Origin: Bryum argenteum
Taxonomy: Eukaryota; Streptophyta; Bryopsida; Bryales; Bryaceae
Reading direction: 5' to 3'
DNA: 64,000 nt
Assembly (NCBI GenBank): GCA_037043015.1
Contig: CM073325.1
Location: 20,315,001-20,379,000, forward strand
Part shown: piece by piece, positions 3,348 through 40,094 of the stretch
Position numbering within the stretch: position 1 is the stretch's first letter
Layout: the number at the start of each line of letters is the position of its first letter
Notes under the pieces: generated by a model
The model's input: only the letters and a program-made list of their open reading frames with translations
What the model was told of the DNA's origin: nothing
Databases searched by the model: none
Translations under genes and position numbers: made by a program

Positions 3348-3930
3348 ATGGCAGCGAACCTCGTGAAGCTGATAAGCTGCGATGACAAAGAACTCGAAGT
3401 CGAAGCGGCCGTGGCTATGGAGTCCGTGATGATCAAGGATATGATTGAGGCTATTGGCATCAATGCCCCGATTCCGTTACCGGACGTGTCATACGATACC
3501 CTGGTGAAGGTGATGGAGTATTGCAGGTATCATGTGGAGAGTCGGAAGACTATCCCTGTTATACCCGAGGATGAGATCAACGCATGGGATGCTGATTTTC
3601 TGAAAGTCGATAAAAAAACCATATCCGAGCTTATTCTGGTCCTTCCTGACACCTTTTCTGTTTTCTTCTCTTGTTGGATTGATATCGGCACAGCACATGT
3701 AACGAGTGTTCCTCTGAATTCAGGCCGCGAAATTCTTGAAGATACAGAACTTGGTGGACCTCGCCTGTCAGAGAGCGGCAGATAGGATCAGAAACATGAC
3801 GCCCGAGGAGCTTCTCATTGACGAGCGTGCCTTCACTACTCCTGAAGAAGAGGCAGAATTTCGAAGAAAATGGGCATTAGATAGAGCGAAAGCGTCTGTG
3901 GAGCGAATGAAAGAAGTTCTGTATAAGTAG
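3348..3930 (+). CDS. SKP1-like protein (SCF ubiquitin-ligase adaptor), intact
   Basis: Exon 1 is 3348-3638 (97 codons) and exon 2 is 3724-3930. The phase-0 intron lies at the usual plant SKP1 position, just before the AA-L-I helix. The product is 165 residues. SKP1 bridges CUL1 and F-box proteins in SCF E3 ligases in the nucleus and cytosol. Residues ~1-97 form the BTB/POZ-like domain: VKLISCDDKELEVEAAVA, then VMEYCRYHVE and WDADFLKVD. Residues ~98-165 form the C-terminal helices that hold F-boxes: AAKFLKIQNLVDLACQ and TTPEEEAEFRRKWAL. The usual final WAFE is WALD here and a ~20-residue tail follows it. The frame is undisrupted. Function in an SCF complex is inferred from family membership. 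Confidence 0.85.
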
Positions 3931-7422: not shown

Positions 7423-7839
7423 CTGATCAAAGGTACACTCATTAGATGTTCAATACCAATAAGAATCTAACATGATTGAGACGAAAACGTTTTGTGTCCA
7501 GAGCTCCATTCACAGGTACATCATAGCATGTGAATTGCACAACAGAGTGGAAGCACACTATGGTGGCACGGGGTATACATTACGAGGTGCAAAAAAGAGA
7601 CCTTCCTAGAGGTATTTTTTAACAACCCGCACCCAATCGTACATTATATAGAATGCTCTTCTAGAAGCAAGAGCTTTAAGGGCAATCAATTTTATCTATT
7701 AAAAAAGTACCAAAAAAGTCAAAGCACTAAAACTAGTATCAAAAATATTTTATTAGTATAAGCTACCACCTCTAAGGCTCTAACCAATTCTTCTTCAGTT
7801 ATATAAATGTATCACTCATTAACATTATCCTCTAAGTTA

Positions 7840-9044
7840 TTAATAGTGTGATTCCCACTTGGATCTTATCAAATTTCCACCATCATCATAGCTTCTGACG
7901 TCCAATTGTGGAAGGTCAAGGATAGTCCATTCACTTGTTGAAAAATCATAGAGCATTGCAACCTCCTTTCGAAATGATCCGAATTCCATTTCACAATATG
8001 TAGTTACTATCATCAAGTAACCTTCACAAGCATACATCTTGATATACCTCTTGTATCCAGATGTGTTTATATGCATGATATCACTCTCTAATAGAAGGCA
8101 ATTGTGAACTTTGATTTTTACGGGTTTCATGGAGAGATCATCATGATATTCTTCGATATAGTACTTTGTTGTTGTTGATGGAATACTTAACGAATCATCC
8201 TTTTTCTTCCACAACACAAAGAAAGATTCCTCATAGGAAATCCAAGTAATCATTTCGAGATGGTATTTCGGTTTGCAAACGAAAGTGATAAATAATCCAT
8301 TTTGGTCTCGGTACCTATCTTGATCCCATGAACTTTAGTCCACTTACCATTTCATTTCAAAAGATCAAATATGAACATCTTATATTTGGTCTCATACATT
8401 GTTGCGTTGTTCTTCGGTCGTTTATGGGTTTTAAATCTCTCTACCTTTACTATGACCTTATTGCAATTCTTTTCAACACGTTTAATAAACCACTTGTCAG
8501 GTACAGGAGGCAAGTATTGCCAAGTTCTTGTCAATGGATTGACCAATTGGAATTTATTCTTACATTTATGCCCTCCCGGGTCCTCATCAAGAACAAACAA
8601 TCCTACTCCTCCTGTATTTTCACTTAAAACACATTTATATGGAAATTTGTATGTATACCACTTGTTGCAACCAATGTCCAATGTTCTCACCCATATATCT
8701 TGACGTTGAGTTTCTGTGATGAAAGACAAGATTCTTCGATGAGCTTCATCACAATTTCGGGGAAAAAAAGAACCATTTGTTAAGATATTGTGTTTCCATG
8801 TTTTATTCAAATATTGTAAGCGGCAAATGTCATTGATGGAAAGATAGGCAAATACAACAACATGCAGATTATGAGGAAGCTTTTTCCAAAGGTCATGATC
8901 AAAAATCTCTTCACTGGAATCTCCTTGTTTTGATTCTTCTTGCTCCTCTGAGCTTTTCATTTGATGTTCATAACTTACTTTTATTTTCTCATTAGAGGTT
9001 TTTGTTGCATCTTCTTCCATTGGCTCTTGGCTACTAGGTAACAA
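7840..9044 (-). pseudogene. F-box protein gene, copy A, interrupted
   Basis: The minus-strand frame starts at 9044. It has an acidic Lys/Glu-rich N-terminus, an F-box at about residues 52-92 (DLWKKLPHNLHVVVFAYLSI, then CRLQYLNKTW) and a long C-terminal region that reads like the kelch/FBA-type substrate domain of plant F-box proteins. F-box proteins bind substrates and dock on SKP1. The frame stops at a TGA (…FDLLK-stop) near 8352; copy B has NRNGKW at this point. Coding similarity resumes in another frame and runs to a stop at 7840-7842. Several single-base differences from copy B cluster at 8255-8365. The lesion may be real decay or local sequence error. Confidence 0.75.
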
Positions 9045-10011
9045 GTAAATACTCTCCTTTTTTAAAAATCAATAGTGATAAATATCTAGTTGATATATAT
9101 ATATATAAATATATATTTATGATTTAAGTATCTCAAATCTCAAAATTATTTACTTTTTCATGATCTAGCTTCGTATATAATTTTTTGATTGAAGTAAAAG
9201 ATTTCTTAAATTTATAAAATAAAAAAATATATATATAACAAAGTGAAGTTTACTTTGAAAGATTCTCATGCCTTTTACTTTATGTGCACGGTCTTACTGC
9301 GATCCTACTCTAACTTATTTGGTCATATAATGAACACAAGTGCAAGTTTGAGGAGGACATTGAAGAAATAAAGGAGCTCTCTTAAACACTCAATCCACAA
9401 ATCGCCATCCTCCTCACGAAGGGACGAGATTTGATGCTCGACATGGTGTCTAGGGCCTTGATGGAAGGGGTCGCTTGAAGTTCACATTTTTTGGCATTCT
9501 TGCCCTAAATCAACACTATATTCAAGTACAATTCATGTTCCATATTTCAAAAGCTACTCGTACATTCAAGGGCACGATATGCAAGACGGATATGGGTACC
9601 ACTAAGAGGGGTAAACCTATGTGGAAATCATTATACATGTGCCAGAAATTCCAATCTTAACCCCATGTATACAACTATAACCATATCACCTCTAATACCA
9701 TCTAGTTAGAATAATTAATTTTTCAATATTATTTTTTTATCATAGTAGTTTCAGAAAAATCACAGTATCTTTGAGGGAATGAGGGGTACTCATATCATGA
9801 CTGTATTTATCACTTGACTAATGAGGATGTTTTACGGTTACCCAACTGTGGAGAGTGAATTTCTGGTTTTAGATTTCTGGGTATTTAACCTTGAAGCGTT
9901 CCTGGGTCCAAAAATCGGACCCTAAAAGTCAGGGGCATTTCTTGGGAGGCTCTTTCGGTCAGCGTATGCGCTTTGTGTGTTGATTGTCGTCCTTTTCAGA
10001 AACCTTGAAAC
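9045..10011. promoter_or_regulatory. shared divergent promoter region between F-box and SKP1 (copy A)
   Basis: About 970 bases separate the two divergent start codons. The F-box side is very AT-rich with TATATATATATA runs near 9097-9115. The SKP1 side carries the array leader (9930-10011). No other gene is seen. Shared regulation is inferred only from the geometry. Confidence 0.4.
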
Positions 10012-10643
10012 ATGGCGTCGAACCGTGTGAAGCTTACATGCTCTGATAACACTACAGTCGAAGTCGATGTGGAGGTGGCGAGGAAGTCCGAGATGGTGAA
10101 GGACATCATTAAAGCGAAGGGCATCAATGAACCGATTCCAATGCCGCTGCGGGTGTCGGGCGATATCCTGACGAAGGTGATGGACTATTGCAAGTTTCAT
10201 GTGGAGAGTCGGAAGACCAGCGATGGTAAGCCTGCTACTCCCGAGGATGAGATCAACGCATGGGATGCCAATTTCGTGAACGTCGATCAACAAACTCTGG
10301 TAACTCTTATCGGGGTACGAAGTCTCGACGTATGTGTTACTCGTTAAATCTTCTCTTGTTGGAATCTTGTTGGTACAGCACATCTGATGAGGGCACCTTT
10401 GATCAGATGGCGGAACTCCTGAAGATAAAGAACTTGAAGGATCTTGCCCGTCAGACTCTGGTTGACAGTGTCAAAGGCAAGACCGTGAAGGAGATTCGGG
10501 AGATGTTTAACATCAGGAATGACCTCACAACAGAAGAAGAAGCGAAATACCGATTGCAAAACGGTGAATGGGCATTTGTGATGGTGTCAGATAAGCCGGC
10601 CAAGGAGATGGAAAAGATTGTTAATAACATCATTGACAAATAA
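10012..10643 (+). CDS. SKP1-like protein, intact
   Basis: Exon 1 is 10012-10314 and exon 2 is 10407-10643. The borders are GTACGA and GATCAG, in phase 0. The product is 179 residues, slightly longer than typical SKP1 (~160). The BTB/POZ-like half contains VKLTCSDNTTVEVDVEVA, VMDYCKFHVESRK and INAWDANFVNVDQ. The C-terminal half has LLKIKNLKDLARQTLVD, VKEIREMFNIRNDLTTEEE and a WAF motif, followed by a ~22-residue tail ending NNIIDK. It lies head-to-head with an F-box gene. TTAA at 10507-10510 is the empty counterpart of the piggyBac insertion site in copy B. Confidence 0.85.
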
Positions 10644-11987: not shown

Positions 11988-12059
11988 TAGTTGTCCTTTG
12001 CAGAAATCGCGAAACATGGCTGCGAACCTCGTGAAGCTGATATGCTTCGATAAGGACTA

Positions 12060-12188
12060 GGTAATGGTCGAGCAGCCTGTGGTTATGAGAAATAACCGAT
12101 GGGGCGGTATCTACTGAGCCGCGCGAGCGGCGAGGTAGGTACTGCCCCATTGGTTATTTCTCATAACCACGGGCTGCTGACCATTGCC
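12060..12188. repeat. ~51-bp imperfect inverted repeat at the left end of the Crypton-like element
   Basis: Arm 12060-12110 (GGTAATGGTCGAGCAGCC…GTGGTTATGAGAAATAACC…) is complemented by 12138-12188 (…GGTTATTTCTCATAACCAC…GACCATTGCC). The 27-base loop contains GAGCCGCGCGAGCGGC, itself a small palindrome. The arm starts at the insertion repeat. It may be a recombinase-binding site or a transcript hairpin. Confidence 0.8.
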
Positions 12189-12369
12189 GGACATAACCGA
12201 AGTCCGTGGATTGATGTGGATGATTTTCATCCAAACGTCTAGTAGGAATCCTTGAATGAAATTTCATTTTCCGTAGGACATCCGTTTGTTCATCCCTCCC
12301 AAATAAATACGCCGCCATTGTGATGAGCCTGCCGTCATTTTCTCGCGAGGTGTGTGCTTCCTGTCTGCG

Positions 12370-14477
12370 ATGGAGCGTTTGAAGCGCAAGAGGGTTCCTA
12401 CATACAAGCGGATCATGTCGACTGCTAATCGTCCTATGCATGGTCGCGGTCGAGGGCGAGGTCGTGGTGGTGAAAGTGGTAGTAGCGCCGCACCAAATCC
12501 CTACATACATCTGACGATAGCTCAACTCTTAACTGCGTGCACTGTTTCACTTCGAAATGATCTAATGACGGAGAATAGTCTCGTTAGTGTGGAAACTCCT
12601 CGGTGTTTGATGAAGAAACACTAGAAGGCTTTGATATCTTCGGAATTGGGATCGATTTTTCAAGTCCTACAACTGTTGAAGTGCCGAATAGGGAGTTATC
12701 GGACACCGTTTTGAATTGAGATAGTTTTTCGTAGATCCCGATGCGAGAGTCGATGTAGTAGCGACGAAGAAAGGTCCACTTTGTGGATTTTTTGATTGTG
12801 ATCCGGAAAAAATGGAAAAAATGTTAAGTTACACAGAAAATCCAAGCAAGAGATGAGATACATGGGCGAGAAATCGGTTTGATGCTTGGAGAAATTTTTG
12901 TGGATTGGATACTTCTATTACAATTGAGAAGCTTCCTCTTCAAGAATTTGGATCAATGTTGTGTAAGTTTTTTATTATGCTGAACAAGGAAAGTGGTGAA
13001 CACTATCCTACTGGAACGATCATGAGTATGCTACAAGCTTTCAATCAAATTCTGTGCCATGCTCAAGATGAAAGGATTGTTACAACCGGAATTGAGGAGG
13101 TGCCGTTTAACATAAAAACGCATCCTTGGTTCAAAGCCACTACTAGGGCTGTACAGGATGCTATGGAACGGAGTAGAGATTTCGGTGCCAACAAACCGAG
13201 GAAGAAGGTTGATTGTATCACATTTGATGAAGAATGTAGAGTACTTTCTCATCCTAAACATTTGGCAACTCATCCGTTGGGAGTTCAGAAGAGATTTGCA
13301 TATTATTGTGTTACGGTGTTTCTTATACGAGGAGGATCTGAATTGCAAGGACTTTTGGTGTCTGACTTTCAACTTGGAAAAGATGAAGCAGGGAAAGACT
13401 TTCTAAGGTAAGTTTGAACCTCTGAAATGTGGAAACTTTGAGCATGATATGTTGTATTGATAAGTTCATGATTATATTTATGCAGGTACGACGAAAGACT
13501 CTCCAAAAACTACAAAGTGTCGTTGAAGCGATTTCAGCAAGAGCACTTTCGAAGTGTGGTTGTTTCCTACAACCGAGACGTGTTGGAGACCTTTTCGACG
13601 CTCATTGAGCACATGCCACCCGAGTCTAAAACATGTGGGCCACTTTTTTATCATGCATTCACAACAAAAAAAACGAATACATGGTTCAAGCAACAACCGG
13701 TTGGTTTGAGTACAATGCGGGGTGCACGAAGCAGAGATGATGGAAAACTGGGATTGAAGGTAATTTCAAAGAACAAAAGCGGAGAGTGACAGCAATTACA
13801 AGAATGTCTGCCGCTCAAGTACCAAAGGAGATAATGTCTAGCATCACGGGCCATTGCAATGAGAAAACTCTCGCCAGGTATGATTACAAAGAAGATTGTT
13901 GCAAGCGGAAAGCGTATGAGCTTTAACACGGAGCCTTACAACATGATAACGGGGAGCCTTTGACTTTCGAGTATCATTACCAACAAGAGTTGGAGGCATG
14001 GCATGCGCAACAATTGACAAGTCGGCTCCAAGTATACATGTTTCTGAAGTTACGTCGGAGTTACAAAGGTAAACATATTTTGCGTCATAGAAAGTGGTTC
14101 AAGGATGTAGCTGCGCTTTGTTGATTTGGCTTCTATTTTGCAGGTTGAGTATTGAGGATATTCCAATGACCGAAAGTCGCGATGAAGAAGGTCTCGCTGA
14201 TGAGGATGAATTTCAGGAGAATATTGATCCAGAAAAGCTAAATAGGATAACAGAAGCTTCGATCAAGTCCAAGAAGTTCAAAGATGAGTGGCGAAAAAAA
14301 CAAGAAACAACCGCGTCCACTTCTCGATCGGTTGTTGGAGGCCAAGAGAGGATTCCAGAATCCCATCCGAGACAAGAAACTGTGATGGTGCCGGAAATTG
14401 AGGAGTTAATCAAGAAATCAATACTACGCGGAAGCTTCACGAACTGTGTTTTCAATGTGCACGTTGGCAAAAAATAG
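12370..14477 (+). pseudogene. DUF3504 (Crypton/KIAA1958-type) tyrosine recombinase, degraded
   Basis: The N-terminal part (from ATG 12370) is Arg/Gly-rich. A broken stretch follows, then RNRFDAWRNFCGLDTSITIE, which opens the SAM-like core-binding region. The catalytic region starts with FLIRGGSELQGL (first catalytic Arg). An intron (13408-13485, GTAAGT…TGCAG) joins DFLR to YDERLSKNYK. The region then has WFKQQPVG, KNKSG, a one-base loss near 13783, RVTAITRMSAAQVPKEIM, SITGHCNEKTLARYDY (catalytic His and Tyr), and a TAA at 13924. The usual HxxR box reads KSGR, so its His is lost. A second intron (14069-14143) leads to an acidic tail ending SFTNCVFNVHVGK, an ending like that of KIAA1958-type proteins. 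Cryptons use this enzyme for integration. This copy is inactive. Confidence 0.8.
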
Positions 14478-15486
14478 GGCAGCTTGGTGTGACAATGTAC
14501 AAAGAACAGTCGGACAATGTAATGTGGAAAGAAATATTGTGCAATAAAGCTGTAAATATTATGTATGTTGAAGTGTCTTTGTGTCGGATGAAGCATGGAT
14601 GGGTGGACGGAAAATCAGAAATCGGATGTCAAATCCAAGGATTCCTACTAGAGCTTTGGATGACATTCATCCTCATTCATCCATGTCTATAGAAGAACCA
14701 TGTATCCCATATGGATAGCACGGTCAAAGGTACCCCTTGCCTAGGCAGGGAGTATAAGCCCCCCCCACAAAAATTGTGGCATACTTCGGAAATTTTTCGG
14801 GTAGTAGCACTGGCATGCATTCGTTGGCGCGGACACATAACGCTGGGAAGGGCGGGAAGGCCTTTGTTATGCATTATAACGTTGATCCTCTTCTCAAGTA
14901 AAAAGCTGCCACGACAGGTCAAATCGACTGGACTGCGGTTATGGTAATGTTTGAAGTCGATGTGGCCGTGGCAGCTGAGTCCGAAGTGGTGAAGCATATA
15001 ATGGAGGTATATTCAAAAGCGGGCATCCGATTTCCGATTCCGTTGCCGCCGCTAGTTTCAGACAAAAGCATGGCGAAAGTGATAATATATTGCAAGTATC
15101 ATGTGGAGAGTCAGAGGAACAAGCCTGCTACTCCCGAGAATGAGATCAAGGAATGGGATGCTGAATTTGTGAAGGTCGATCGACAAACTCTTATCGATCT
15201 TGTCCAGGTACGAAATCTTTATCTGTTTGTATTTTGTAAGTTTGTTTGTTAGATTGTTGTCGACACAACGGGTCTAACAAGTGCACCTTTGTATCAAGCG
15301 GCAAAAGAGCTGAAGATCAACAACTTGCTGAAACTCACCACTCAGACTCTGTTCGATAAATATCAACAAGACCACGGAGCATAGGAAGTGTTTAACAAGT
15401 TCAATCGGATGTTTAACATCGAGAATGACTTCAGTCAAGAATTAGAGGCGGAAAATCGGAGAAATTATGGATACAATGGAAATTAA

Positions 15487-18510: not shown

Positions 18511-18650
18511 AAAAAAAGTACCAAAAAAGTCAAAGCACTAAAACTAGTATCAAAAATATTTTATTAGTATAAGCTACCACCTCTAAGGCTCTAACCAATT
18601 CTTCTTCAGTTATATAAATGTATCACTCATTAACATTATCCTCTAAGTTA

Positions 18651-19857
18651 TTAATAGTGTGATTCCCACTTGGATCTTATCAAATTTCCACCATCATCAT
18701 AGCTTCTGACGTCCAATTGTGGAAGGTCAAGGATAGTCCATTCACTTGTTGAAAAATCATAGAGCATTGCAACCTCCTTTCGAAATGATCCGAATTCCAT
18801 TTCACAATATGTAGTTACTATCATCAAGTAACCTTCACAAGCATACATCTTGATATACCTCTTGTATCCAGATGTGTTTATATGCATGATATCACTCTCT
18901 AATAGAAGGCAATTGTGAACTTTGATTTTTACAGGTTTCATGGAGAGATCATCATGATATTCTTCGATATAGTACTTTGTTGTTGTTGATGGAATACTTA
19001 ACGAATCATCCTTTTTCTTCCACAACACAAAGAAAGATTCCTCATAGGAAATCCAAGTAATCATTTCAGATGGTATTTCAGTTTGCAAACGAAAGTGATA
19101 AATAATCCATTTTGGTCTCAGGTACCTATCTTCAGTCCACTGAACTTTAGTCCACTTACCATTTCTGTTCAAAAGATCAAATATGAACATCTTATATTTG
19201 GTCTCATACATTGTTGCGTTGTTCTTCGGTCGTTTATGGGTTTTAAATCTCTCTACCTTTACTATGACCTTATTGCAATTCTTTTCAACACGTTTAATAA
19301 ACCACTTGTCAGGTACAGGAGGCAAGTATTGCCAAGTTCTTGTCAATGGATTGACCAATTGGAATTTATTCTTACATTTATGCCCTCCCGGGTCCTCATC
19401 AAGAACAAACAATCCTACTCCTCCTGTATTTTCACTTAAAACACATTTATATGGAAATTTGTATGTATACCACTTGTTGCAACCAATGTCCAATGTTCTC
19501 ACCCATATATCTTGACGTTGAGTTTCTGTGATGAAAGACAAGATTCTTCGATGAGCTTCATCACAATTTCGGGGGAAAAAAAGAACCATTTGTTAAGATA
19601 TTGTGTTTCCATGTTTTATTCAAATATTGTAAGCGGCAAATGTCATTGATGGAAAGATAGGCAAATACAACAACATGCAGATTATGAGGAAGCTTTTTCC
19701 AAAGGTCATGATCAAAAATCTCTTCACTGGAATCTCCTTGTTTTGATTCTTCTTGCTCCTCTGAGCTTTTCATTTGATGTTCATAACTTACTTTTATTTT
19801 CTCATTAGAGGTTTTTGTTGCATCTTCTTCCATTGGCTCTTGGCTACTAGGTAACAA
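18651..19857 (-). pseudogene. F-box protein gene, copy B, frameshifted
   Basis: It is the same gene as copy A. The N-terminal frame (start 19857) contains the F-box (DLWKKLPHNLHVVVFAYLSI) and ends at FFPPKL because of one extra G in a G/A run near 19573. The remaining ~300 residues are open in the next frame down to 18651, without the stop seen in copy A. So each copy is broken at a different place. A homopolymer length error in the assembly could mimic this lesion. With no such error, it is a one-base-inactivated gene. Confidence 0.8.
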
Positions 19858-22179
19858 GTAAATACTCTCCTTTTTTAAAAATCAATAGTGATAAATATCT
19901 AGTTGATATATATATATATATAAATATATATTTATGATTTAAGTATCTCAAATCTCAAAATTATTTACTTTTTCATGATCTAGCTTCGTATATAATTTTT
20001 TGATTGAAGTAAAAGATTTCTTAAATTTATAAAATAAAAAAATATATATATAACAAAGTGAAGTTTACTTTGAAAGATTCTCATGCCTTTTACTTTATGT
20101 GCACGGTCTTACTGCGATCCTACTCTAACTTATTTGGTCATATAATGAACACAAGTGCAAGTTTGAGGAGGACATTGAAGAAATAAAGGAGCTCTCTTAA
20201 ACACTCAATCCACAAATCGCCATCCTCCTCACGAAGGGACGAGATTTGATGCTCGACATGGTGTCTAGGGCCTTGATGGAAGGGGTCGCTTGAAGTTCAC
20301 ATTTTTTGGCATTCTTGCCCTAAATCAACACTATATTCAAGTACAATTCATGTTCCATATTTCAAAAGCTACTCGTACATTCAAGGGCACGATATGCAAG
20401 ACGGATATGGGTACCACTAAGAGGGGTAAACCTATGTGGAAATCATTATACATGTGCCAGAAATTCCAATCTTAACCCCATGTATACAACTATAACCATA
20501 TCACCTCTAATACCATCTAGTTAGAATAATTAATTTTTCAATATTATTTTTTTATCATAGTAGTTGAGGAAAAATCACAAGTATCTTTGAGGGAATGAGG
20601 GGTACTCATATCATGACTGTATTTATCACTTGACTAATGAGGATGTTTTACGGTTACCCAACTGTGGAGAGTGAATTTCTGGTTTTAGATTTCTGGGTAT
20701 TTAACCTTGAAGCGTTCCTGGGTCCAAAAATCGGACCCTAAAAGTCAGGGGCATTTCTTGGGAGGCTCTTTCGGTCAGCGTATGCGCTTTGTGTGTTGAT
20801 TGTCGTCCTTTTCTGAAACCTTGAAACATGGCGTCGAACCGTGTGAAGCTTACATGCTCTGATAACACTACAGTCGAAGTCGATGTGGAGGTGGCGAGGA
20901 AGTCCGAGATGGTGAAGGACATCATTAAAGCGAAGGGCATCAATGAACCGATTCCAATGCCGCTGCGGGTGTCGGGCGATATCCTGACGAAGGTGATGGA
21001 CTATTGCAAGTTTCATGTGGAGAGTCGGAAGACCAGCGATGGTAAGCCTGCTACTCCCGAGGATGAGATCAACGCATGGGATGCCAATTTCGTGAACATC
21101 GATCAACAAACTCTGGTAACTCTTATCGGGGTACGAAGTCTCGACGTATGTGTTACTCGTTAAATCTTCTCTTGTTGGAATCTTGTTGGTACAGCACATC
21201 TGATGAGGGCACCTTTGATCAGATGGCGGAACTCCTGAAGATAAAGAACTTGAAGGATCTTGCCCGTCAGACTCTGGTTGACAGTGTCAAAGGCAAGACC
21301 GTGAAGGAGATTCGGGAGATGTTTAACCCCTAAAGGCCCAAGCGTTTTTGCAACCTCCAATCTCAAAATCTGCGATTTTTGACCACATTGTGGAGTTTGG
21401 AGTATGGCATAAATTTTTATTGTATTCTGGAACATTCAACCGTAAGATCTTGAACCTAACTTCATCCATGATTACCATGTCAAATCTCAACCGTTGGATC
21501 TGCACCATTTGTGAGATCATAACGTTCAAAGTTGATGCAGAAATTTTTTTGTGGCTTGCCCGAAAGACATAGTCTACTTGGTGCAAAGGGAGACTTGGTG
21601 ATTGTTACCCTAAACATTTTGCTAGTATTTTTTTCCATGTTAGAAATCAAGTTGGCCACACCCATGCAAAATTTTAGACACTCATTCCACTTTTTGGACC
21701 TTCATACAATTTTTTTTCTAGAAGGAGGCAAAAAAGTACTCTAAGTGAACAAATTGGGGTTCTAATACAAATCCACCATCAACTTTTTGAATTTTTCAAA
21801 AGTGAACGGTGAAAATGTTCCTTTACACAAATCAGAGTCATGGGGGAAAAAAAAATTTGAAAAAAAGTAAAATCTCAATTATTGACAATTTTGGAGAACA
21901 TAAACACACATATGCAAATTAGTAAATGGACGGGCAACAAAGAAGAATGGGAACCCATTCTCAATCTTACGGGCCCATTGCTGGCAATATGGCAGAGCTA
22001 TGAATAGCCTACTGCCACCATAAATACTTTGCCTAATATTCTATGTAGATAGCTATGACATGTGTCACTTGCAATAAAGGGAGGGCTTTCTTCCCGTTGC
22101 TCCCCACCGTTACTAAGCTCCCTAAGCTCTTTATAAGTTCCCTATAAAAAGATGATCTGACAAAAAGGCCCACGCTTGC

Positions 22180-22800: not shown

Positions 22801-24789
22801 TGGGGTAACAAACTTGAGCTTCCTCTTTGTATGCAAAAAGAAATACTTACATTCACTCACATATGGCGTTGGCGTCGTATGGCAATATCTGTGTGCCACT
22901 TCTCAAAGCAACCTCGATTGAGACACATCCATTTGTCTCCACACTTCCGGCGATAATAATGTGGTTCAAATTTTTGGCAAACCACACACCGACGTCGTAA
23001 TTTTGTATATGTGGGTACACAAATCAATGGCGTGTTCCTTGCTCGAGGAATATCCGCGGGGTGTGAATCTCTCATAGGCCACCCTTGAAGAAGGGCTTCA
23101 CATAAGCCCTTCTTGAATTGAAGGTGTGTCATCGGCGTGCGGTTATATCGATAGTGTTTCACACACTCCAAATAATATATATACATGTTGACAATCGAGA
23201 CATCCAATAAGAAGAAAAAATACGGTGCCACCACTTGTGGCTCCGCACTTGGCATGAATAGGATGCTCGGAGTTGATCGGCAACATCTACACCTCGCATG
23301 TGAGTTGTATATTCTTTCAAAATCGGGATGTTAGAATCATTTCACGACTTGCACCATTTCGCCGAGGGACCGTTACTACCTTCTCACATGGGGGTTGAAT
23401 TGGCAAATAATGAGTGGAAATAAGAAGCACGGGCTTCTTATCCTTCCACATAACACATGATATCGTGCGGGTGTCATGCATTTTCCATAAAGTTGTGCCT
23501 TGAGGCACATTTTTGAAAAGAATTGGTGTTTTTCAAATCTAAGGGAAGACCAACCCGGTTTGCCCTTATTGTCCCACATGCATACATTTCCCGTGATAAA
23601 AGAGTTGTGAAAAGTCCAAAACTAGTGAAGTAATTATCCATTGTCACGCAATGGCCTAAGTTCCAAAGGCCATCCACTAACCTCATAACTACATTATGGG
23701 CCAATCGAGCATCGCCAAGAACAATATTAGGTTGTTCTATGGGAAGGGGGGCTACAATATTGTCTTTTCCACAATAGATCTCGAAATTCCATACGAACTT
23801 TGAAATCGAGCATGCCAAACACCAAACCTTCAAGCCCCACTTTTGAGGCTTCTTAGGCATATATTGACGTATCGGTGAATATGTCCCCTTATAGCGAATC
23901 ATCATTTCATCAATGGTCAAATATTTTCCAAGAAACCATGCCTTTTTACATTGATCTCTCATAGCATTGACTAACCATCTTGTTTGACCGATTTTGTCAT
24001 AACCCGGGTCCCCTCTAGTTTGTCCTTCCATGTTTGTAAGATGGAGACATCTCCTAATGTCTTGAAATCGGGCCCGTGTAAATATATTTGAAATACTTGG
24101 GCATCCAAAGAGGTCATCACGCATCCAATATGTTCTTACATTAGGTTGAACCCTCAACCCCATATATATGGCTAAGGCCATAAATGCTTTGAGGCTCGAA
24201 ATTGTCATATTCTCCCAAGTAGGACCACCTTTGGTATTTCCATGCTCATCTAAAGGAGCATTTGCATACCGATTAGTTTCTTGAACAATAGTGGCCAACA
24301 TGTGTGGAGTCCAAAAGAGGCCAAATAAATCCATAAAACTTGGCATACCACGATGATGACGAGAAGGACCCATGGGTTTCCCCAAAAATGATATCGGCAT
24401 TGGATTATACATAATACTTGGGTTTCCCCAAGTCTCATTCCTAAATTGCCACCTAATATCCTCTTGTTGATGGGGTAACCCATCGTTACGATTATCTCCA
24501 TCACTATCAGAGGCACTTTCAAAATTGGGTAAGTCCTCACTATCATTCCCACCCAAATCATCCCTCACACCATTGCGTGTCATTCTCCTTCTTATTATAT
24601 GTTCTTCCTCAACATCATCATCCCACTCCATATTATTATTACCGCCCTCAGTATCATTGCCATAGAATTCTCCAGGCCCAATACCAGTACTTCTCTCCCC
24701 AATAAAAATATTTGGCTGCAATGTGAATTGACCAATATTTTCTTCTGAAGTCACAACTACTGGTTGCCCTTGTAGCCCAAGCGTATGGC

Positions 24790-25120
24790 CTGTAAGGGGA
24801 AGGCCAGAAGGCGATGCACCCGCCACAGGAAGGCCCTGGTGCCCGGGTAAGCAGGCGTGCCGGCCGTTGCTGCTGTTCGGCTGGAGATGCCCCGCTGCGC
24901 TCGGCGCCGGACCCCAGCTGGCAGCCGACGCGCTTGACTCGCCGACGTGGCCCGACCTCGTGGCCGCGGCGCTGTGCCAGCCCGCAGTCCGCCGGCTTGA
25001 GTCCCATACTAGTCGCAACGCCGTTGCATCACCGCAATCTTGGTCGACGCCTAGCTGCAGCGCTGGTCCGTGCATCTCACCACTCCCGCTTGCTTCTTCG
25101 GGATCAGGTCCAGCATTGTA
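24790..25120 (-). other. GC-rich in-frame insert in the transposase N-terminal region
   Basis: The base composition jumps to very high GC. The protein becomes Ala/Ser/Gly-rich (SSASAASWGPAPSAAG) inside an otherwise acidic AT-neutral region. The frame stays open through it. It may be a captured fragment rather than part of the family's normal transposase. Confidence 0.4.
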
Positions 25121-26089
25121 GATCTCACCACCTCTCTTCCGTCCTCTTCGGCCAAAGTTTATTGCTGCAAGCAAGACTTCAGGTGGCCAGAGGATATCCT
25201 CAAGACTTGCAGCTCTCTCCATACCACTATCATCTTCTCCTTCTTCATTACACAATTCTTCTGAGCTTGGGTAATACGCATGCACTGGAGATTGCGAATT
25301 CAAGTACTCGCCGTTGAAGCCAACATCTGTATCAGGGAAGGTCATGAGCTCAACTCCAGGTCCTAGATCTGGCAATTCTTGATGTTGAGGAGGTAATATT
25401 GCTTCAGGACTAGATGGTGGGCTTGGAGGAACCGTAGTTGGTTCCGGTTGTGTCTGTAGACGTGAACTCCTTCTCATTGGAATATTGTCCCACTCCATCT
25501 GTATTCTCCAAGTTAGACATTACTCATAACTCTCAACTATGAAATTTAGGTACATGTTACACAAGAGATACTCACCTCCTTTGACTTCTTCCATGATCGA
25601 CGTGGAGGCATTGCTTGTATCGGGCCAAGTAGATTTGACAATATCAAGAAATTCTTGCTCAAAAGCGTGTTGATCAACCCACCCTAGAATATGTGCGGCT
25701 TGCCTGTAGAAATGGTGTCGGAAATTATTTGCTTGTGGATTTCTTGGCCAAGCTTTGGACTTCTTACGAACGCGTAAACTGCGCAAATGTTTTTGATCAA
25801 GCAGTGAAAGGAGGTCATGAATCTGATGTGCTCGAAGGTGTTTGCGTACAGCCCAGGAACGAAGGCGAGCTTCTGGATCGGCAGATGGAGGCGGCAATGT
25901 CGAAATAAGAAGTGGCTGCAAGTTTCCGACACTCACAACCGCAGTATTGGGTTCCTGCATATGGTCATATTAGTCAGTTGATGTGATGTCAGTTTACCAT
26001 GCAAGTTCCACATGCAAACCAAGTTCATGTTCATGTATTCGAACCCGTTGATGTGATCGCTCCTCGATCTGTGCAATCATCTGATCGCT

Positions 26090-27566: not shown

Positions 27567-28109
27567 CAGGGATGTCAATATGGACGTCTTTTGAGTTTTT
27601 TTGGTCGGACGGACGTCCGTCCGTCCGGGGGGGTAAAATGGAATTAATACGACAACAGTAAAAATTTCAACCATTAGATCTTCTTGGAGCTCGCATCTAA
27701 GCCGTTCAAATCTGATCTTCTTTAGAGCGACCGAGAAAATTCGCTCCGACCGGCGCCCGGTCGAGACGACCGAAGGTCGTGGTGACCATGAGATTTGATT
27801 CGGAGATCTACAACCGTCAGATCGATAACGGTCGACCGGTCAGACGGCGGTCAACCGGTCGGAAGGCGGTCGACGGATCGATCGGCGGTCGACCGGTCAG
27901 ACGGCGGTCGACTGGTCAGACGGCGGTCGACGGATCGGTCGGCGGTCGACGGATCGGTCGGCGGTCGACCGGTCGGACGGCCCGACCCGAATTTAAGGAT
28001 AAATAAATAAATAAATAAATAATTTTTTTAAAAAAATAATTTAGAATCCGGTTGCTCCGTCCGATCGGTCGGGCCGACTGATCGGACGGAGCGACCGAAT
28101 TCTAAATTT

Positions 28110-28152
<43 letters not shown>

Positions 28153-29618
28153 CCCCGGACGGCGTGGGCGTCCGAAGCCGCCTTGGTGGGGAGCTAAGGA
28201 TGGCGGCCACTCCTCTTAACCCTAACCCTATTCTAATTTATTCCAACAACCATTTTGAATTTCTTCAGAACTCCCCCCCACCCCCCTAAAGTTTTTCAAG
28301 ACCCAGATTACACTATTTGGGGTTCCCGCTCAAATAAGATTCTCCTTGCTTTGAGCATTACGATCTCATTAATGGAAAAGAATCGACGGTTTAGATTTTA
28401 TAAGTCACTAAAATTTCAAGTTAACTTTAAGATCCTACGGTTGGATCTTTCTAAACATTGCTTCAAATGAGGCTTTACAAGCATGAAGAATGTAGGCAAT
28501 TTCGCATCAAGGATATCTAGGGATTAAGATCTCTTTATTTTATCTAAAATTTAACCATACTTAAGTTACTTTTGCGAATTGATTGATGATTCATTTAATC
28601 TTATTATCATGGTCCGGAAGATATTACCTACTTCGTACTACTTATGGTATGTACTACCTAGTTTGGAATCATGTATTTTTCACACCAACCCCTTTAATCA
28701 CAAACATGACAAGGTTTGCTTAATATTGAATAACTTATTATAAAAGGAGACTAATAGTATCTTCATAGATAAGTATTGGCCTTTATCATATAAGATAAAA
28801 TTTAAGGAAACCATACAAATAAATAAGTACTAAGAATAGAAATGAGAATTATATTTTGCTATTGAAAGTTTAGGTGTCTTTAATCTATTACAAGAGAATT
28901 ATTAATTGTTATGAGGATTTCAACTACAACAATTTAATCTTAGAATTAAGGTTTTTATATTGTCTTTGGGAAGAAAGTTTACAAGAGTTAGAAAACTCAC
29001 ATTTCTTAACACATTTATTTTTCCTTCAAACCCCCCCCCCCTAGCCTTTAGGGGTTAAATAAAAAACCACCCATTTGGATTCAAATAAAATTTGCTTAGA
29101 TACTTAGATCCGTAAATGGTTAGTAACTATAATATTTTTCATTATCATAAGTCAATGTGAATATATTGCAAATTCTATCAAAGCATGACATTGTACCCCT
29201 AAAGAATTCCAAGTGATTCATGGACAGTTAAGATTCATATGAACAACGAGGGGTTATTTATAATAAGTTCTATTTTTCATGTGTGTCCATTTGTCCAAGC
29301 CCATAAGATCTTTTGAGTAAAACATTCCCTTCTATGAAAAGAAGATCTTCCCGACATTCCCCTGACAAAATCGGCATGTGGATTAATGCCCTGATTTAGA
29401 TTGTAGGTACAATGTCAGGTACCTAAAAATAGACAATTCTTAAATGCAAGCAAGAGGAGGAAGAAGAAGGGAGAAGTGGAGAGATGAGGGAGTGTTGGTG
29501 AGTGAGAGAGGAAGAGAGGAGCGCAAGACACCGACCGGTCGCTTGGTCCATCGGTCGGTCGCTCGGTAGGTCAATCGGTCGGTCCCTCCGTCGATCGGTC
29601 CCTCGGGCCATAAGCCAA

Positions 29619-29649
<31 letters not shown>

Positions 29650-32498
29650 CCTTGAATTCCGGTCGCGCCCTCCGACCGATCGGTCGGCCAGCGACCGCGT
29701 CCGATGGACCGACCAATGGACCGACCGATTGACCGAGCGACCGGTCGGTGTCTTGCGCTCCTCTCTTCCTCTCTCACTCACCAACACTCCCTCATCTCTC
29801 CACTTCTCCCTTCTTCTTCCTCCTCTTGCTTGCATTTAAGAATTGTCTATTTTTAGGTACCTGACATTGTACCTACAATCTAAATCAGGGCATTAATCCA
29901 CATGCCGATTTTGTCAGGGGAATGTCGGGAAGATCTTCTTTTCATAGAAGGGAATGTTTTACTCAAAAGATCTTATGGGCTTGGACAAATGGACACACAT
30001 GAAAAATAGAACTTATTATAAATAACCCCTCGTTGTTCATATGAATCTTAACTGTCCATGAATCACTTGGAATTCTTTAGGGGTACAATGTCATGCTTTG
30101 ATAGAATTTGCAATATATTCACATTGACTTATGATAATGAAAAATATTATAGTTACTAACCATTTACGGATCTAAGTATCTAAGCAAATTTTATTTGAAT
30201 CCAAATGGGTGGTTTTTTATTTAACCCCTAAAGGCTAGGGGGGGGGGGTTTGAAGGAAAAATAAATGTGTTAAGAAATGTGAGTTTTCTAACTCTTGTAA
30301 ACTTTCTTCCCAAAAACAATATAAAAACCTTAATTCTAAGATTAAATTGTTGTAGTTGAAATCCTCATAACAATTAATAATTCTCTTGTAATAGATTAAA
30401 GACACCTAAACTTTCAATAGCAAAATATAATTCTCATTTCTATTCTTAGTACTTATTTATTTGTATGGTTTCCTTAAATTTTATCTTGTATGAAAAAGGC
30501 CAATACTTATCTTTGAAGAATACTACTAGTTTTCTTTTATAATAAGTTATTCAATATTATGCAAACCTTGTCATGTTTGTGATTGAAGGGTTGGTGTGAA
30601 CAATACATGATTCCAAAGTCCAAACTAGGTTTTGTAATGTAGATGAGGTTTTCAACCCATCTTACATCTCGGAGGTAAAAAATAAGTCCAACAAGAATCT
30701 TTTTTAAATCAGATACATCTTGTCAAAATTTGGAATAAAGTACAAAATGGTTGATTGGGCCTTTAGTAGTTGAGCGTTAGAGTGAATATCCATTGATGTA
30801 CTATATTGAAAGGCTATTAGCATCATATAAGTATATAAATATGTGAAGGAAAAAGACATATAACATAAAACTTACAATACAAATTCATGCAACCCAAATT
30901 TAGAAGAACAATACTACAAAGTATTATGTGCTAATATTTGTCTTTCAAGTGTATGTATGAGTATGAAGATTATATTTCTATAAGACTCTCCTAAACATTT
31001 AACAAGTTACGTAGTGGTAATGTGTAAATATAGATTTTTCATTTAATTGATCTTGGTAGATGTTCATAACTCCTGAATAAATATGAGTCATGTCCACGTT
31101 TATGGCGTATGTTATTTTTTATTTTTGTAGAAAGTAATGTATCTTCAATATCTTATTATAGCAATTCATAATACTACAAGATCAAATATACAATGATATA
31201 TTATTTTAAGATGCGATTAGTTGATATTGACCCCATTTGATTTATATGGCAATAAAATTTGTATTGAATAAAAATAATCTTTGTGGAAGTGTTTTCTTAT
31301 CCTCAAGTAAAGATTTTTTATTTAATCTTATTTGACCCTTATGATGCTATGTGTTTTTGGCAAATGACACTAAGAACTTACACCCCCAAAATACCAAGTG
31401 CCCTTCACAGTGAATTAAGACATTAGGCTTGTTCCTAAAGCTTGCAATATGGGAATTAAAGAAAAATACGTAATTTAAACTAAAAAACACATGAACATCA
31501 TCCTATTTTCTCTTTTAAGTTGTTAAACATCAACATGCCATAAGTAGTACAAAGTAAGTAACATCTTCCGGACCATGATAATAAGATTAAATGAATCATC
31601 AATCAATTCGCAAAAGTTACTTAAGTATGGTTATAATTTATAGATAAAATAAAGAGATCTTAATCCCTAAATATCCTTGATGCGAAATTGCCTAAATTCT
31701 CCATGCTTATAAAGCCCCATTTGAAACAATGTTTAGAAGATCCAACCGTAGGATCTTAAAGTTCACTTGAGTTTTTAGTCACTTGTAAAATTTAAACCGT
31801 TGATTCTTTTCCATTAGTGAGATCGTAATGCTCAAAGCAAGAAGAATCTTATTTGAGCGGGAACCCCAAATAGTGTAATCTGGATCTTGAAAAACTTTAG
31901 GGGGGTGGGGGGGAGTTCTGAAGAAATTCAAAATGGTTGTTGGAATAAATTAGAATAGGGTTAGGGTTAAGAGGAGTGGCCGCCATCCTTAGCTCCCCAC
32001 CAAGGCGGCTTCGGACGCCCATGCCGTCCGGGGAAATTTTTTTTAAAAAAAAATAAAAATAAAAATAATAATAAAATAAATAAAAAAATAAAATAAAAAT
32101 AAAAAATATATATATATATATATCTAAATTTAGAATCCGGTCGCTCGTCCGATCAGTCTACCGACCAATCGGATTTGAGCGACCGGATTCTAAATTTAGA
32201 TTTTTTAATTTTATTTTTTTTTATTATTTTTTTTTTTTTTTTCCTCGGTCGGGTCGACCGCCGACCGATCAGACGGCCACTGCTCTACCGGTCGCCCCGG
32301 GTTGGGCCGGTCGGCGGGCCAATCGCCCGGGCCAAAGACCGGTCGCCCCGCCCAAAGACCGGTCGCCCAGGCCGAAGATCGGTCGCCCCTTTTACCTTAG
32401 GTAAATAGTTCAAAATCTCTAAGTCACAGACGCTCCCATAACCCCCTGCGGACATCCGACGGACGTCCACCGGACGTCCGGACGCTGTGACATCCCTG
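27567..32498. mobile_element. hAT-like foldback element (~4.9 kb), non-autonomous
   Basis: The termini are CAGGGATGTC and GACATCCCTG, an inverted pair of hAT type. The flanks carry an 8-bp duplication ATGTACAT (27559-27566 and 32499-32506), the hAT target size. The target is the gypsy pol frame, which reads through if the element is removed. The interior has no transposase. It is one large imperfect palindrome centred near 29640. GC-rich CGGTCG/CGACCG clusters lie near both ends (27820-27980 and 32240-32390). Confidence 0.9.
28038..32201. repeat. nested palindromes: long inverted arms plus two end hairpins
   Basis: The left arm (about 28149-29610) is complementary to the right arm (about 29660-32040). 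The right arm has ~0.9 kb extra near 30630-31530. Hairpin 28038-28109 (TTTAGAATCCGGTTGCTCCG… and its complement) and hairpin 32122-32201 are themselves inverted partners. The centre holds ~32 T (29620-29650). Both arms contain 'ccctaaagg'-type ends (29044-29058, 30221-30235). Confidence 0.85.
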
Positions 32499-38759: not shown

Positions 38760-38797
38760 AATGTAGAAAAACGACATTGGGGACGTTTAGGGGTTAA
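38760..38797 (+). mobile_element. piggyBac-type right terminus, orphan
   Basis: The sequence GGGGACGTTTAGGGGTTAA matches the right end of the full piggyBac element (…GGGCCTTTAGGGGTTAA). A matching left end was not found upstream. The minisatellite begins directly after the TTAA. Confidence 0.55.
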
Positions 38798-40094
38798 TAT
38801 AGGCTTAGGGGCTTAGGGGCTTAATATGGGCTTAGGGGCTTAGGGGCTTAGGGGCTTAATATGGGCTTAGGGGCTTAATGTGGGCTTAGGGGCTTAATGT
38901 GGGCTTAGGGGCTTAATGTGGGCTTAGGGGCTTAATATGGGCTTAGGGGCTTAATGTGGGCTTAGGGGCTTAATGTGGGCTTAGGGGCTTAGGGGCTTAA
39001 TATGGGCTTAGGGGCTTAATATGGGCTTAGGGGCTTAATATGGACTTAGGGGCTTAATATGGGCTTAGGGGCTCACGGGCTTAATATGGGCTTAGGGGCT
39101 TAATATGGGCTTAGGGGATTAATATGGGCTTAGGGGCTTAATATGGGCTTAGGGGCTTAATGTGGGCTTAGGGGCTTAATATGGGCTTAGGGGCTTAATG
39201 TGGGCTTAGGGGCTTAATATGGGCTTAGGGGCTTAATGTGGGCTTAGGGGCTTAATATGGGCTTAGGGGCTTAATGTGGGCTTAGGGGCTTAGGGGCTTA
39301 ATATGGGCTTAGGGGCTTAATATGGGCTTAGGGGCTTAATATGGGCTTAGGGGCTTAATATGGGCTTAGGGGCTTAATATGGGCTTAGGGGCTCAATATG
39401 GGTTTAGGGGCTTAATATGGGCTTAGGAGCTTAATATGGGCTTAGGGGCTTAATATGGGCTTAGAGGCTTAGGGGCTTAATGTAGGCTTAGGGGCTCAAG
39501 GGCTTAATGCGGGCTTAGGGGCTTAATATGGGCTTAGGAGCTCAATATGGGTTTAGGGGCTTAGGGGCCTAATTTGGGCCTAGGGGCTTAATATGGGCTG
39601 AGGGGTTTAATATGGGTTTAGGGGCTTCACATGGGCTTAGAAGCTTAATATGGGCTTAGGGGCTTAATATAGGCTTAGGGGCTTAATATAGGCTTAGGGG
39701 CTCAGGGGCTTAATATGGGCTCAGGGGCTTAACATGGGCTTAGGGGCTTAATATGGGCTTAGAAGCTTAGGGACTTAATGTAGGCTTAGGGGCTTAATGT
39801 AGGCTTAGGGGCTCAGGGGCTTAATATGGGCTTAGGGGCTTAATATGGGCTTAGGGACTTAATATGGGTTTAGGGGCTTAGGGGCCTAATATGGGCCTAG
39901 GGGCTTGATATGGGCCGAGGGGCTTAATATGGGCTCAGGGGTTTAATATGGGTTTAGGGGCTTCATATGGGCTTAGGAGCTTTATATGGACTTAGGGGCT
40001 TTATATGGGCTTAGGGGCTTAGGCGCTTAGGGGCTTAGGGGTTGAGGGGCTTAGGAGCTTAATATGGGAATATGGGCTTAAAATGGGCTTAGGG
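38798..40094 (+). repeat. 19-bp minisatellite, ~1.3 kb
   Basis: The unit GGGCTTAGGGGCTTAATAT (last bases AT or GT) is repeated roughly 60-70 times. Extra 9-base CTTAGGGGC sub-units occur irregularly. Copies are near-identical at the left and degenerate toward the right. The unit contains TTAGGGG but is not a canonical telomere repeat. Confidence 0.95.

Follow-up and report, generated by a model that had tools for sequence, protein, structure and literature searches.

The locus raises the question of what kind of DNA has split an SKP1 exon of Bryum argenteum and by what means it could have moved there. The left part of the window (the whole stretch of DNA analyzed, 64 kb) is occupied by an SKP1 gene cluster, one member of which is split by an insertion. 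Its exon breaks off after a left half at 12016 to 12054 (MAANLVKLICFDK; plus strand) and continues in a right half at 14944 to 15209 (VMFEVDVAVAAES...; plus strand, with the 3′ limit set by eye at a GT). The coding sequence is broken by the element and is then in frame again, the halves joined at 12054/14944 reading MAANLVKLICFDKVMFEVDVAVAAESEVVKHIM..., and the frame containing the right half matched Skp1_POZ in Pfam (E = 1.2e-7). An earlier note on this DNA had described just such an interrupted and resumed SKP1 frame, and that description is borne out. The reading we favor, with a probability of about 0.75, is that the insertion is an apparently young tyrosine-recombinase (YR) DNA transposon in a streptophyte, Crypton-like in its working and with a DIRS-like terminal feature. 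Of this, three things were observed directly, namely exact ends, paralogous empty sites free of gaps, and the signature of a recombinase.

The LEAFY SAM domain, a streptophyte marker, occurs in this genome (best E = 1.1e-28, with 5 matches above the cutoff) and in none of 14 control genomes. The 258.8-Mb genome (25 contigs) was searched at the DNA level with positions 12060 to 14949, yielding at least 120 matches, and boundaries were mapped by comparing fetched loci with a query that included approximately 500 bp of flank on either side. With the flanked query, the match began at 12051 to 12054 in 15 loci and stopped at 14943 to 14947 in 12, the remaining fetched loci being truncated, interrupted, or diverged. 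The junction letters place the left end at 12055 (GACTAGGTAATGG) and the right end at 14943 (GCGGTTATG), with the flanks beyond unrelated between copies; on the basis of these copy junctions, the whole inserted element occupies 12055 to 14943 on the plus strand (2,889 bp). The left end recurs widely, as 31 of the 79 matches to a 206-base query from 12055 reached its first base, a figure that describes recurrence and is not used for the boundary, since a query that itself starts at 12055 cannot alone reveal the limit of homology.

All 17 readable left ends were preceded by A-N-G, which was ATG in 12 copies, AAG in 3 (the window copy, L015, and L021), and ACG in 2 (L023 and L028). Further left cores were ATG (L032 and L037) or ACG (L036), and L031, with an unreadable left end, was excluded from the core count. 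Right ends carried ATG in 14/14 copies and TTATG in 13/14, and L029 and L030 agreed with this. Where the left core was not ATG and both ends were known (the window copy, L015, L021, and L023), A[A/C]G on the left was paired with ATG on the right in 4/4 copies. In the window, the left core AAG lies at 12052 to 12054 and is taken as target sequence, and the right core ATG, at 14941 to 14943 (...GCGGTTATG), is element borne, both on the plus strand. The end motif of the element is a 3-bp core, A-N-G on the left and ATG on the right, with no target-site duplication.

Six SKP1 paralogs in the window (at approximately 3310, 5981, 9974, 16830, 20790, and 36818) cross 12054/14944 without a gap, with 40 bases aligned on each side; those at 9974 and 20790 belong to one recent duplication, leaving five independent empty sites. 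For example, GATAAG/GTAATG of the split gene aligns with GATAAC/AAAACG and similar sequences in the paralogs, which have AAC or GAC (5/6) or CAA (1/6) at the position of the left core. The absence of a gap indicates insertion without target-site duplication, and on the same evidence the left AAG is best taken as target. The earlier note had bounded the element at 12060 to 14949 by a 7-bp direct repeat, GGTAATG, a placement that does not stand. The true ends at 12055 and 14943 lie 5 to 6 bp away; the left GGTAATG is internal to the element, being kept in 14/17 left ends (L021, L027, and L028 differ by at least one base), and the GTAATG following 14943 is SKP1 target sequence. The earlier edges would also leave 6 extra bases relative to the six paralogs, whereas 12054/14944 leaves no gap. 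As for other copies, to which that note had pointed as a check, those with surviving ends stop at the same bases, and what their ends have in common is the A-N-G/ATG core. We give almost no credence to a misassembly of the two SKP1 halves, or to the 7-bp repeat as the limit of the element. GGTAATG does stand at 12060 and 14943, yet other copies have the 12055/14943 ends in unrelated flanks, and the paralogs match across 12054/14944 gap-free.

The single recognizable protein in the element is a tyrosine recombinase with two predicted GT-AG introns, all parts lying on the plus strand. Predicted exon 1 (12370 to 13407) has a disrupted frame in the window copy and an open one in the copy L009, where a 365-residue and a 192-residue open frame flank predicted intron 1 (13408 to 13485); related families show a frame break at the same place. 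Predicted exon 2 (13486 to 14068) encodes YDERLSK, KxxR, GHxN, and the catalytic Tyr, and predicted intron 2 (14069 to 14143) is followed by predicted exon 3 (14144 to 14477), which encodes an acidic tail to GSFTNCVFNVHVGKK. In Pfam, a 500-residue reading of L009 matched Phage_integrase (E = 3e-5, below the curated cutoff) and DUF3504 (PF12012; E = 2.9e-4, 21.3 bits against a cutoff of 29.7). The DUF3504 assignment made in the earlier note thus yielded a match, yet a weak one. Its wider description, a Crypton-like YR element with introns in a plant SKP1 exon, is supported, with the introns as predicted ones.

The catalytic positions read IRGG, NKSGR, GHRN, and ARYD. Arg, Arg, His, and Tyr motifs are present, and the R-H-R-Y tetrad is incomplete in that the His of HxxR is Lys. 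This replacement had been read as a sign of a broken enzyme, but Lys is the family norm, occurring in all 15 in-family rows (six from the B. argenteum genome and nine from elsewhere, one of the latter, P0007, additionally being without the Arg of the motif). The outgroup P0006, a DUF3504 protein, has HCLR at this position; it is the single such outgroup and stands on a very long branch of the tree. For the relative P0002, the best structural matches of the predicted model (pLDDT 65) were Cre-type recombinases (E = 6e-5) and XerH, and a QRICH1-containing entry appeared at Foldseek rank 37 (E = 7e-3; entry-level match). The predicted structure of P0001 was poor (pLDDT 42) and was set aside. By the frames given to Pfam and the fold match, tyrosine recombinase is the only mobility enzyme found, with no reverse transcriptase (RT) or DDE transposase. 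The frames given to Pfam came from the family of the window element and from four divergent ones and contained no RT, further frames having been only looked at, and no gag, RNase H, or methyltransferase was found among the frames given to Pfam. Nothing was returned by sequence searches of solved structures, by a search of viral contigs with P0005, or by scanning the window for Rfam families and tRNAs.

The recombinase has numerous relatives. A protein search of the B. argenteum genome gave 124 matches, including 14 places at 30 to 60% identity with frames of 293 to 689 residues, and three protein searches outside this genome, two with a ceiling of 7,996 scored candidates, found at least 12 proteins. 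Three of the latter (P0001, P0010, and P0011) come from Calypogeia fissa, on separate contigs of differing length; they are unnamed protein products related by protein sequence and known without element ends. P0001 shares 40% identity over 77% of the query, and NKSGR is also found in P0001 and P0010.

The left end of the element carries a hairpin at 12055 to 12205, with arms at approximately 12060 to 12122 and 12127 to 12188. In the DNA search, 12060 to 12188 matched its own inverse, and the arms were 87% complementary over 12071 to 12122 and 12127 to 12178; the DNA fold of 12052 to 12210 gave −64.9 kcal/mol (z = −14.9). The inner half of the hairpin, read on the minus strand, is GGACTTCGGTTATGTCCGGCAATGGTCAGCAGCC, and it resembles the joined element ends, GGACTGCGGTTATG followed by GACTAGGTAATGGTCGAGCAGCC. 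This inverted, ICR-like copy of the right-end/left-end junction spans 12127 to 12206 on the minus strand, with the left-end part at 12127 to 12188 and the core plus the right-end part at 12189 to 12206. In the window, the inner half scored 71 against the joined ends, compared with a shuffle maximum of 27, and in an anchored test the right-end part alone was equaled by 0 of 5,000 random stretches. Significance was confined to this anchored test: when the right 21 bp were compared ungapped with the element, the best score was 15 in the forward and 14 in the reverse orientation, against a 95th percentile of 14.05 and a maximum of 16 in shuffles. Across 17 loci the junction match beat the shuffle maximum in 15, partly through the hairpin arm alone, and L023 and L024 had no inverted junction site above shuffles. 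Among nine alignments, the right-end part was spanned in four (the window copy, L009, L015, and L018) and not in L021, L023, L024, L027, or L028. In a search with the inner site itself, 22 of 38 loci had a readable one, short nonautonomous loci and copies at approximately 75 to 86% identity among them.

A subterminal inverted repeat is also present, its 51-bp arms lying at 12207 to 12257 and 14633 to 14683 (both plus strand; 84% complementary). The first arm seems to extend the inverted right end, from which it is separated by approximately 230 bp of missing sequence. With a minimum length of 16 bp, a repeat listing contained no inverted repeat between the outer ends and no direct repeat within the element. 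The outermost ends are not inverted copies of each other, although the subterminal pair and the left hairpin are present. Symmetric half-sites, GTCGA around ATG, were apparent on visual inspection of the predicted circle junction; they are absent from the right ends of L023 and L024 and are not claimed.

Similar hairpins were found in two of four divergent relatives that were fetched (L046, L047, L048, and L049). L046 has a 56-bp hairpin and a left end at ATG followed by AATTAGGTAATCG, and in its sister copy L052 the element begins at this ATG too. Comparison with one further copy gives L052 a right end of GTCTGGTTCATG and a length of approximately 3.6 kb, both ends of the family being placed in one copy. 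The inner junction of this family is clear for the left end and weak for the right end (224 of 5,000 random stretches were as good). L048 has a 65-bp hairpin, with a left end not placed by a second copy, and L047 and L049 had no such hairpin within the fetched part. Separately, a 67-bp sequence at 3734 to 3800 of L046, next to the stop of homology, occurs in at least 34 other places at 97 to 100% identity.

We propose that the recombinase would excise the element as a circle, joining the right end (...GGTTATG) to the left end (GACTAGG...), with a predicted circle junction of ...GCGGTTATG followed by GACTAGGTAATG.... The circle would then insert at a short A-N-G core, leaving the target unduplicated. 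The inverted junction within the hairpin may act as a splint or as a second recombinase site that fixes the exact junction.

Alternatively, this might be a plain Crypton-type transposon whose hairpin and inverted junction are leftovers of a head-to-head insertion, frozen in place and without a function today. The approximately 230 bp absent from the inverted right-end part and the lack of such a site in L023 and L024 would fit, and we consider this possible while leaning against it: the inner site is readable in 22/38 loci, short nonautonomous and diverged copies among them, and a hairpin stands upstream of the gene in L046 and L048. Another role for the inner site is suggested by the yeast 2-micron plasmid with Flp, a circle carrying inverted recombinase sites. 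By this analogy, which extends to inverted sites on a circle alone, the inner site would be a second recombination site for circle inversion or amplification during replication. The circle would indeed carry two inverted junction copies, but no flipped hairpin was seen by eye among the left ends compared, and we regard such a use as very unlikely.

The most different alternative is a DIRS derivative that lost gag and RT, kept the recombinase and the internal complementary region, and was copied through RNA with help in trans. The available text of one source gives, as hallmarks of DIRS1, internal regions inverse-complementary to both ends that overlap on a 3-bp circular junction, and integration without target duplication (PMC3266345), and the window family agrees in having a 3-bp core, in leaving the target unduplicated, and in carrying both ends as an inverted copy with the overlap at that core. 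Sources conflict on the host range, at least in the passages concerned: Dirs1-like elements are present in Viridiplantae according to PMC4157794, whereas green plants are devoid of DIRS1-like elements according to PMC3266345, which would count against such an origin. Neither RT, in the frames and families given above, nor gag, RNase H, methyltransferase, or inverted terminal repeats were found, and the present element carries the inverted copy at its 5′ end rather than its 3′ end. The predicted introns are still present in the DNA copies, a point against movement through spliced RNA. A DIRS derivative is therefore judged unlikely, and the YR DNA transposon remains the preferred reading.

As to its place among known elements, Ngaro elements are defined by RT and by long or split direct repeats, whereas the frames given to Pfam contained no RT, and a repeat listing with a minimum of 16 bp showed no direct repeats within the present element. 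It resembles Cryptons (CryptonF, CryptonS, CryptonA, and CryptonI) as a YR-encoding DNA element in which no RT was found, with no target duplication and a short core shared by both ends. It differs in its plant host, its Lys for the His of HxxR, its DUF3504 score below the cutoff, and its 3-bp core; most copies have the 3-bp ATG at either end, compared with the short (4 to 6 bp) direct repeats of Crypton termini, none of which were found in animal groups as far as the available account goes (PMC3212892). The left hairpin with an inverted end junction is likewise absent from the portion of that account describing Cryptons (PMC3212892). We file the element near Cryptons as a variant; membership by sequence is unproven because the DUF3504 match is weak.

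Cryptons were recorded in fungi, animals, and stramenopiles, in the relevant passages of Kojima and Jurka (2011; PMC3212892), and had not been described in plants according to the available part of a May 2026 review (PMC13317346). Automatic annotations list up to a few hundred Crypton hits in plants, in the excerpts concerned (PMC8729191, PMC10722297), and the printed claim of absence is thus one about described elements. A bounded, multicopy, apparently young family in a streptophyte with liverwort relatives points to a wider host range, and a DIRS-like inverted junction with no RT found bears on the origin of DIRS elements. With so precise an A-N-G core, a simple recombination assay could test the mechanism. 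It is conceivable, though rather improbable, that bryophytes harbor a large, recently active superfamily of RT-less YR transposons with a DIRS-type ICR as a built-in splint, by which the 5′ end of a single-stranded form would fold back as the hairpin and the 3′ end would pair beside it, so that the ends meet at the 3-bp core. In that case the ICR would predate, or not depend on, reverse transcription, and these elements would be living intermediates between Cryptons and DIRS.

To judge from its sequence, the element family looks young. Ten copies were compared, nine of them against L009, with L016 excluded as an older subfamily. At distances above 6 bp from CAG/CTG, isolated substitutions amounted to 0.35 to 0.72% over the nine copies, a low estimate, since the filter removes clustered changes. 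Several copies are split by kilobases of other DNA, at differing places, so that not all copies can be recent. The rate of difference among aligned bases reached 23% at up to 2 bp from CAG/CTG, compared with 1.5% more than 40 bp away. Within 3 bp, they comprised 352 transitions, 191 indels, and 174 transversions, a mixture for which cytosine deamination alone is insufficient. The clustering was seen at CAG/CTG and not at CCG/CGG, as would fit base-calling trouble at CWG methylation. Controls from five duplications in the window were mixed, two showing a weaker excess and three none (differences near CAG/CTG versus elsewhere, 5/250 versus 14/2,561, 20/254 versus 34/939, 0/28 versus 34/911, 1/14 versus 43/533, and 34/144 versus 163/671).

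Between the window copy and L009, 24 of 48 difference clusters touch CAG/CTG, a motif that accounts, neighboring bases included, for 18% of the sequence. The coding sequence holds 10 frame-changing clusters, of which 4 do so; two others, at 13643 and 13665, adjoin runs of T or A, as judged by eye. Part of the decay is likely to stem from errors of sequencing or assembly at homopolymers and at putatively methylated CWG, and some breakage may be assembly error.

Elsewhere in the window, a 681-residue frame at 23474 to 25519 (minus strand) contains a DDE_Tnp_1_7 transposase domain (E = 2e-59), which we take to be of the PiggyBac type, unusual for a plant. Positions 7701 to 10511 and 18512 to 21327 form a duplication, 99.3% identical, with SKP1 and F-box genes. 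Overlapping self-matches at approximately 80 to 87% at 38787 to 40094 look like a tandem-repeat array, and 28106 to 32081 contains inverted duplications at 93 to 97% identity.
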